Of a stretch of DNA of 64,000 nucleotides, positions 38,962 through 41,679 are shown piece after piece. Numbering within the stretch: position 1 is the stretch's first letter; each line of letters opens with the position of its first letter. The position numbers and the translations under genes were made by a program. The notes below the pieces were generated by a model that saw nothing but the letters and a program-made list of their open reading frames with translations, was not told where the DNA came from and searched no databases. This DNA comes from Candidatus Hydrogenedentota bacterium (lineage in GTDB: Bacteria > Hydrogenedentota > Hydrogenedentia > Hydrogenedentales > JAEUWI01), in NCBI GenBank assembly GCA_019637335.1, contig JAHBVV010000011.1, forward strand, positions 1 through 64,000, given 5' to 3'.

Positions 38962-41679
38962 TCAGCCCCCAGGCCCCAGGAGGGCTTCCAGCCGGGTTTG
39001 CGCTTGGGGCGGCGCGGCCTCGCGTATGGGCCCGCGCCCGGCGAGATCGGTGAGGATGGCCATGGCCTCCTCCGTCATGGGGAATTCGCCGGGATAGTCG
39101 AGCCACTCTGTATGGCCGTCCATGTAGAGCACGTTGCCGCCGCGGAGTTGACCGTGGTTGTCGGGCCATTCCACGAGCACGGGAATATTTTTCTGGGAAG
39201 ACCGGGCTGCGCCGGGATTGTTGATATCGGTAATTAGAAAGCGCTCAACCCCTTCGCGCAGGCGGTAGACGGTTTCTTCGCCCACGGCCAGGTCTTCGGT
39301 GAAATCTCCGCCATCCGCAATCTGCTGCCCGTATGCCGTGGCGAATCGCTCCAGCGCTTCCTGATCGCGTATCACGTAGCCCAAGTAGGCGTAGCTGTGA
39401 TCGTCCGCCGCCGGTTGGCGGTAGGCATTCGCGGAACCGGGGCAATTCAACAGCCGCAGTTCGCGCAGGTCATACTTGAGGAACCGCGCGTCATCCATCA
39501 TGAGTGTACCGCCCTCGGCGGAGAGGGGCGGGAAAAACTCGCCCTCGGCGGTGCTGGCATAGATCTTGAAGGCGAGGCCGACTTGCTTCTCGGCACTCGC
39601 GCAGAGACCATGATCGTAGTCATGGAAGCTTTGAAAACGGGGCACGGTCCACGAGGTGGTCGGGGTCCAGTCAGCAAGGCCATCGAGGGCGGCGATGGTG
39701 GCTTCGGTCATGGGGAACTTGCCGGGATACTCGATCCACTCCACATGGCCATCCATATAAAGGACGTGGCCACCGGTGTAGCCTTCATGATTGCCGGGCC
39801 ACTCGATCATGACGGGAATAGTGCGCCGTGGCACGTAAAGAAAGGGGGAGGGCTCGCCATATTCCAGGACGTAGCGCTCGATGCGCTCGCGAATACGCAC
39901 CATGGTGTCTCCGTAACTCATTTCAATGGCGATATCGTCCGAAAAGTCGCCACCCCCGGCGATCTCATTGCCATAGGCCGTGACAAACTGCTGCACGTCG
40001 CTGTCGTTGAGGAGCACATAGCCAAGATACACGTAGTGGCGGTCATCCAGCATCTCAACGGCGGCGCCGTCGACGCCCGCTCCCGGGCACACCCCAATTT
40101 CGCGATCAACCATATATTCGGGATAGACCTCCGCGTCGCGGGCGACCAGCTCGCCGGGTACCAGGGAGAGGGGTGGCCAGACATATCCTTGATGCTCATT
40201 GGCATACATTTTTTGCACAAGCGACCATTGATTCAGATTAGACGCACAATCGTTACGATAGGGGACGGGTAGCACGGTCGAATCCGCCCAAGTCGTCGCC
40301 GGGCTGTTTTGCGCCAGGCCCCGGAGGGTCGTGATGACCGTCTCGGTCATGGGGAATTCACCCGGATAGGGCATCCATTCCACGTGGCCGTCCAGAAAGA
40401 GAACGTTGCCGCCGCTTTCACTTTCGTGATTCTCGGGCCACTCCAGCAAGACCGGTATGCTTTTCTGCGTGATGCCGGGCTGGGTCGGATCGGGCGGCCC
40501 CTGGGGGATGGCCTCCACGATGTCCTCGCGCAGCCGGAGCAGGGCATTCCCATAGCTGGTCGCGATGTCGAGGTCGCCGGTGAATTCGCCGTCCGCGGCG
40601 ATGACTTGAGTGTAGGCTGCGGCAAACTGCTGGACGTCACTTTCGGTCAGCATCAGATAGCCCAGGTAGGCATAGTGGACGTCATCGAAGAAGGGCAGAG
40701 GATCATCGGATTCACGGCCCGGGCACGTGTACACAATCGGGTCGTTTATATACTCGGGATAAACGGCCTCCGGGGCCAACATGAGCCGCCCGCCCGCATT
40801 ACTCAAGGGAGGGAGAAATTTCCCCTGGTTATTATTGGCAAACATCGTGTTCACGAGTCCCAAATGCCTCATGTTGTTGCCGCATCGGCCGGGCAGCGGG
40901 CTGGTCGTAGCATAGGGATAGTTTTCAAGGAATTCATTGGGCGCCCAGTCCGTGGGCGGGGTGTGATTGGCCAGCCCCGCCAGAACAGCGAAGGCTTCTT
41001 CGGTTATGGGGAATTTCTCGCCAAAATGGACGAATTTCACGTGCCCGTCCATATAGAGCACATTGGAACCGTAGCGTTCGTCGTGGTTGTCGGGCCAATC
41101 CCACATGACCGGAATCGTAGATCGGAGATTGGCCCCGGCCCCCGGGCTATTGACGTCGGTAATCAGAAAACGCTCGATGCCTTCGCGCAGGCGAAAGACG
41201 CTGTTACCGTAGCTTGTCGTTCCGGGCAAGTTGCCGGAAAAGTCGCCGTCGCCCGCGATCTCGGTGCTGTAAGCATCGGCGAAGGCCACGAGGTCGGCCT
41301 GCTCCGTCAGCAGATAACCCGTGTAGACGTAGTACTGGTCGGTGAATGGATTTTCCGGCCGCTCGCCCGCCGGTCCCGGGCAATTGAGTATGGTACCGTC
41401 CCGAAGTATTTCAGGATAGACCTCTTCCCAGGGAAACATGAGATTTCCCCCTTCACTGCTCAGAAGGGGAAAGGTATTTCCCTTAGACGAGTTCGCATAC
41501 ATTTTGAAGACAATTCCCATTTGCTTGAGATTGTTTTGGCATGACGCGGAAAGGGCCGAGCGGAGGGGGGCGAAGCGATCGAATTCCCAGACGGCGCGGG
41601 TCAGCCCATAGGCCAGGCCCGCGATCGGGAGGGCGGCCACAAGCAAAACGGGAAGTGGAATGCGCTTCAAAACACCCAT
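38962..41679 (-). CDS. Exported protein with four tandem pseudopilin-like head modules
   Basis: A 905-residue protein. Residues about 8-28 form one membrane helix ([18 protein letters not shown]) with no prepilin cleavage site. Four repeats of about 215 residues follow (roughly 47-265, 266-490, 491-705, 706-905). Each has an N-terminal helix like the one after a pilin stem ([53 protein letters not shown]), a central P-x-Y-Y/CPG region, and ends with N/[11 protein letters not shown]/K. The D-G-H end is the DUF1559/H-x9-DG pseudopilin signature. Normally each head has its own stem. A promoter (TTGTAT-17-TATAGT) is upstream. Probably anchored in the inner membrane and exposed outside; function unknown. 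Confidence 0.8.
   Translation of the reverse strand: [905 protein letters not shown]

Follow-up and report, generated by a model that had tools for sequence, protein, structure and literature searches.

The 64,000-nucleotide stretch of DNA analysed here (the window) encodes a protein in which four head modules of the pseudopilin type stand in tandem behind one N-terminal hydrophobic segment. This protein, which we call the tetramodule, is a real, conserved and new form of a known domain family. It is homologous to the DUF1559/H-X9-DG pseudopilins, has lost the prepilin motif, keeps a fixed array of four modules and is linked at three loci to a divergently transcribed gene. The window lies on one (C11) of the 55 contigs of a 7.16 Mb assembly, and in named collections the homologues nearest to it come from Candidatus Hydrogenedentota. 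The features discussed below are listed in Table 1.

Table 1. Positions within the window of the tetramodule gene, its parts and its divergent neighbour (aa, amino acid residues of the tetramodule unless stated otherwise).
Feature	Position	Strand	Remarks
Tetramodular H-X9-DG protein	38962..41679	(-)	905 aa, whole ORF, ATG start
N-terminal hydrophobic segment, aa ~7-28	41596..41661	(-)	anchor or signal peptide; hydropathy and motif scan
Module 1 (M1), aa 43-247	40939..41553	(-)	pilin alpha1-C remnant kept; C47/C100; H199-x11-D211GH
Module 2 (M2), aa 262-465	40285..40896	(-)	C266/C319; DGH at 430
Module 3 (M3), aa 473-678	39646..40263	(-)	C478/C531
Module 4 (M4), aa 689-890	39010..39615	(-)	C693/C746; M4 signature NCPGSxxAY...
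C-terminal tail, aa 891-905	38965..39009	(-)	RLexLLxxGG-type motif, common to the genus (alignment)
Divergent intergenic region, 193 bp	41680..41872	.	between tetramodule and partner; TATAGT box
Divergent partner, secreted 1431-aa protein	41873..46168	(+)	divergent arrangement also in L057, L059

Inspection of the sequence placed a Shine-Dalgarno-like AGGGGA directly upstream of the start codon. The 905 residues hold four modules of about 205 amino acids, every one of them complete, with short linkers, some 8-15 residues in length, between them. When the four modules were compared by BLASTP, pairs shared 40-46% identity (149-188 bits, E 1e-50 to 1e-65); the best score obtained from shuffled sequences, 200 per pair, was 22.7 bits. 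The NCBIfam model TIGR04294 (H-X9-DG-CTERM) matched four stretches of the protein (E=7.7e-18, 63.6 bits, cut-off 19), the best of which lies for the most part on the DG-H end of that model. Pfam DUF1559 (SBP_bac_10, PF07596) matched at the start of M1 below its gathering cut-off (16.2 vs 23.3 bits), which one tetramodule homologue, L058, passed with 26.3 bits. A profile search for DUF1559/H-x9-DG had been proposed in an earlier note on this DNA.

Each module carries a cysteine pair, spaced by exactly 53 residues in 4/4 modules, and to judge from this sequence pattern there is probably one disulfide per module. At the end of each module stands NH-x11-DGH, with an F-P-[MI]-T-E stretch after it. 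The histidine is present in all four, at X11 spacing rather than nine residues before DG (the local classic paralogues have X10), and the motif is a variant of H-X9-DG. The earlier note had every module keeping both a stem-like start and the D-G-H end. The end is indeed retained; the start is well preserved in M1 alone, with 19 of 26 residues identical to the pilin consensus of the genome, and is eroded in M2 (9/26), M3 (13/26) and M4 (11/26). M2-M4 lack the membrane half of the pilin stem, which is also unrecognisable ahead of M1. No tandem repeat was detected at the DNA level in the gene, and the module duplications must therefore be old. An assembly artefact was considered and rejected, because any two modules agree at fewer than half of their residues and the design is repeated in relatives from other assemblies. 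An origin from a virus was also rejected, as there was no PHROGs match.

The relationship to pseudopilins is clear. M2 aligned by BLASTP over almost its whole length with a classic G|FTLIELL... pseudopilin (L081; E=1e-19). A profile of M2-M4-type modules was compared by hhalign with a profile of ten classic pseudopilins, all but one encoded by the window's own genome, and matched it over 191 columns (probability 100%, E=1e-43). Together with the four TIGR04294 stretches, these matches bear out the proposal of four modules of the pseudopilin-head type. The region common to the modules and the classic pseudopilins begins at the membrane-distal half of the stem (CQNNLKQMG...). With 46 DUF1559 matches, the genome itself contains a large paralogous family. 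No significant sequence match to a module was found in the PDB.

The N-terminus also agrees with what had been proposed for it, namely one hydrophobic helix and no prepilin processing site. A single segment exceeded the hydropathy threshold; it is weak (Kyte-Doolittle 1.7), is preceded by about six residues and is followed in the alignment by a conserved tryptophan (AVWEFD). The motif scan found no G|FTLIE-like or G|FxxxE motif near this segment, and a Pfam search gave no N_methyl (PF07963) match at E<=10 in the tetramodule, with N_methyl detected in 3/3 classic paralogues tested as a positive control. The protein departs from a type IV pilin or pseudopilin in that it has no class III leader (G|F-x3-E) and bears four heads instead of a single head behind the helix. 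The same genome encodes a prepilin peptidase and several T2SSF-type proteins; given that the prepilin pathway exists and the tetramodule lacks the signal for it, the pathway appears to be bypassed. The tetramodule is probably exported and membrane-anchored, although the hydrophobic segment could instead be a cleaved signal peptide.

Tetramodules were detected in seven of 68 Hydrogenedentota genomes, in eight genes including that of the window. All five complete genes (the window, two in G001, and one each in G048 and G010) have exactly four modules. The other three are incomplete at contig ends, two stopping inside module 4 and one beginning inside module 2. Beyond Hydrogenedentota, a contig scan with two conserved peptide patterns revealed no clear relatives except on L076, an "uncultured bacterium" contig that matches G028 of the same phylum. 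In a module tree of 63 rows, all M1 modules form one clade (100/98) and all M4 modules another (100/97), across genera and families. M2 and M3 intermingle (AU test for each as one clade: M2 p=0.028, M3 p=0.12), and they may have exchanged sequence or may simply lack resolution in the tree. From the M1 and M4 clades and the four modules in all complete copies, we infer that the array most likely arose once and that the number and order of its modules were then kept, with no free expansion.

This does not fit a multivalency with a variable number of modules, and a search of relatives for longer or shorter versions, as the earlier note had proposed, showed none among complete tetramodules. A separate gene in G003 (L067:14674-17040, minus strand) does encode at least three modules, with linkers of a different kind that are long, charged and coiled-coil-like, on a contig that ends inside the first module seen. 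The modules of this protein form their own cluster in the tree (100/97), and module multiplication thus probably happened at least twice.

The region ahead of the array differs among the tetramodule homologues. Those of G048, G010 and G038 carry, ahead of the four modules, a signal-like segment and an Ig-like region, then one or two more hydrophobic segments and another domain. In the G048 type (L058:4439-8053, minus strand), two hydrophobic segments flank the sequence RRMRK, and the whole gives the impression of two exported proteins fused long ago. The conserved entity is a four-module array behind an export signal, and not a pilin.

Divergently transcribed from the window's tetramodule gene is a gene for a large secreted protein, with a signal-like N-terminus, beta-helix (PMP-type) repeats, choice-of-anchor Q, TSP3, internalin-like LRRs, a (GE)n linker, PKD, EF-hand and a C-terminal hydrophobic tail. 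The (GE)n linker corresponds to 58.8 copies of a 12-bp unit at window positions 44867-45566. A divergent partner is present at 3/3 loci of the genus where the flank is present, these being the window and G001 contigs C95 and C18. The partner of the window shares 40% identity with that of C95 over 948 aligned positions, and those of C18 and C95 share 45% over 722. The TATAGT box upstream of the tetramodule ATG recurs at both G001 loci; the intergenic regions are otherwise little alike.

The first 476 residues of the partner have a single match in their own genome. When the N-terminal part was searched across the phylum, the G001 partners matched at 1e-132 and 1e-112 and the next best protein at 2.3e-48, and close homologues were found only beside tetramodules. 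Chance adjacency to an abundant adhesin family was rejected on these grounds. The partner gene is absent beside the G028, G048 and G010 homologues, with a ferrochelatase-like ORF in that place at G028, and in G003 the contig breaks off within the tetramodule gene. The partnership is genus-specific at best. Moreover, the two G001 loci may represent one duplicated ancestral pair, so that the three cases of linkage are not fully independent.

Elsewhere in the window (35500-38757, minus strand), the 5' end of a DEAD-helicase-like ORF (MNVAQTLDRLRSDPEFCRNLTKWHTIPPRAARYA) recurs in the ORF at 38305-38757 (MDVAQTLDRLRSDPEFCRDLTKWPTIPPRAARFA). A truncated RhuM-like gene (37880-38308) lies between the two copies of the helicase 5' end, in what looks like an insertion or duplication beside the helicase start.

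The explanation that we prefer, and whose chances we judge to be evenly balanced, is that the tetramodule is an anchored tandem ectodomain in which four different heads bind or present the divergent adhesin-like protein or its ligand. The protein would have descended from DUF1559/H-X9-DG pseudopilins and left the pilin pathway behind. With the prepilin leader lost, an ordinary N-terminal hydrophobic segment would direct it to the Sec pathway and probably serve as an inner-membrane anchor. The four globular heads, each presumably stabilized by its disulfide, would project outside the cytoplasm in tandem, forming an ectodomain of some 860 residues. Because the modules are distinct and position-specific, and not interchangeable repeats, they point to a binding surface or spacer with four fixed parts. 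Within the genus, the likely partner would be the divergently transcribed beta-helix/TSP3/LRR surface protein, which the tetramodule may bind, retain or present in the envelope, or with which it may bind the same extracellular ligand. The loss of the prepilin signal and the pairing of the gene with an adhesin-like one suggest that pilin heads have been reused as a fixed four-part binding protein. Only tentatively do we extend this to a broader scenario, in which the heads left a filament pathway and became a membrane-anchored receptor with four fixed parts, making up a two-gene surface system together with the divergent beta-helix/TSP3/LRR adhesin, as part of a wider conversion of H-X9-DG modules to extracytoplasmic sensor or binding domains in Hydrogenedentota.

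The compact module also occurs singly. We found it, one per protein, behind DUF4190, a Zn-ribbon plus DUF4190, HAAS (L074), zf-HC2 (L054), M56/BlaR1 and ECF sigma domains, and also between HEAT repeats and propeller repeats. The nearest single-module paralogue (L050) is a DUF4190-linked protein of the window's own genome that is 51% identical to M1. The same genome encodes an ECF-type sigma factor with regions 2 and 4 (L049:1785-3404, minus strand) that carries a C-terminal hydrophobic segment and an H-X9-DG-type module. Two BlaR1/M56 peptidase-type membrane proteins (L063:1975-4215, plus strand, and L068:735-3359, minus strand) have the module at the place of the BlaR1 sensor domain, an architecture that suggests that the module can act as a sensor. 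In G036, three single-module genes are adjacent (L065:2734-7567, minus strand), and one of the three encodes a protein with a Zn-ribbon-like start and then an almost intact pilin stem with no leader, which seems to stand midway between the pseudopilin and the non-pilin forms. The view that such modules as a rule occur one at a time behind a pilin stem is therefore only half true, as in this phylum they also stand singly behind many non-pilin N-termini. It follows that the compact module is a portable domain and not strictly a pilin head, and it is probably extracytoplasmic.

These fusions give substance to a second explanation, that the module is a ligand-sensing ectodomain and the tetramodule a multi-site receptor, or a decoy or partner of the single-module signalling proteins. 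In its favour, the module is placed behind M56/BlaR1, zf-HC2, HAAS and sigma-70 regions 2/4, and in all three fusions checked (L049, L054 and L074) a hydrophobic segment lies immediately before it. The tetramodule, however, has no cytoplasmic output domain, because so few residues precede its hydrophobic segment, and no signalling gene is conserved beside it. We regard this explanation as possible but doubtful.

A role as an unprocessed minor pseudopilin-like scaffold, still working with type IV filament or T2SS machinery, is decidedly unlikely. The pseudopilin homology and the filament genes of the genome are consistent with it, as is a minor pilin-like gene cluster at G001 C18, about 2 kb downstream of the tetramodule (L059:1-2037, minus strand), where three minor pilin/PilX-like genes are separated from the tetramodule by a phosphodiesterase-like gene. 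The loci of the window, G001 C95 and G010 show no such pilin-gene neighbours, however, and three homologues have unrelated N-termini; the missing prepilin motif and N_methyl match and the weak hydrophobic helix also argue against it. The secretion-system scaffold put forward in the earlier note finds no support in gene order, as neither T2SS nor pilus genes show a conserved linkage to the tetramodule.

Less probable still is a true polyprotein cut after export into four free heads. Short linkers between complete modules would suit such a protein, but the alignment revealed no conserved protease-site-like motif in them, the module-specific signatures fit a joint structure, and we found no precedent in titles or abstracts; nothing points to a polyprotein in the sense of cleavage. 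We think it just as improbable that the array means nothing for function, being a tandem duplication that came with the DUF1559 expansion in a genome with so many paralogues and confined to few genomes of the phylum, since all eight genes have kept their reading frame at 42-49% identity, with Cys, W, H and DG invariant and the modules in position-specific clades.

Few unexplained families are as expanded in Planctomycetes and their relatives as the DUF1559/H-X9-DG proteins, which are generally taken to be pilin subunits. The existence of a conserved non-pilin form with four copies, and of single copies on BlaR1-, sigma- and anti-sigma-type domains, indicates that the head has an extracytoplasmic function of its own. 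A soluble tetramodule, or one module, offers a tractable target for learning what the head binds.

Open-access literature contains few mentions of DUF1559/SBP_bac_10, and no description was found there of tandem heads, of BlaR1-, sigma- or anti-sigma-type fusions or of the partner gene. No such design came up in titles or abstracts when tandem pilin domains were searched for, and the Hydrogenedentota papers examined do not mention pilins. From Planctomycetes, stress-responsive DUF1559 genes have been reported under the name of solute-binding proteins (PMC2754498). In Tuwongella immobilis, 91 proteins with both N_methyl and SBP_bac_10 form an expanded paralogous family, and a few SBP_bac_10 proteins have Sec/SPI signal peptides and no N_methyl (PMC8567305). 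The latter resemble the tetramodule in that the head domain is exported without N_methyl, but the sections of that report consulted here describe no tandem copies, anchored four-module form or partner gene (PMC8567305).

Compared with type IV major pilins and GspG, the tetramodule differs in having no class III signal, and PDB matches of a classic paralogue to these proteins lie only in or near the N-terminal stem (residues up to about 71). The single-module non-pilin fusions share the compact module with the tetramodule, and those scanned likewise gave no N_methyl match; they differ in having one module behind cytoplasmic or membrane N-terminal domains, and they fall outside the tetramodule group in the tree. 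The DUF1559/H-X9-DG pseudopilin-like proteins of Planctomycetes and relatives have the same head, with the alpha1-C start, the CPG/CPS cysteine and the NH.. end. From these the tetramodule is set apart by its four heads per chain, the lack of a prepilin leader, the X11 spacing and its shorter modules, of about 205 amino acids where the same region in pseudopilins of its own genome is mostly 244-285.
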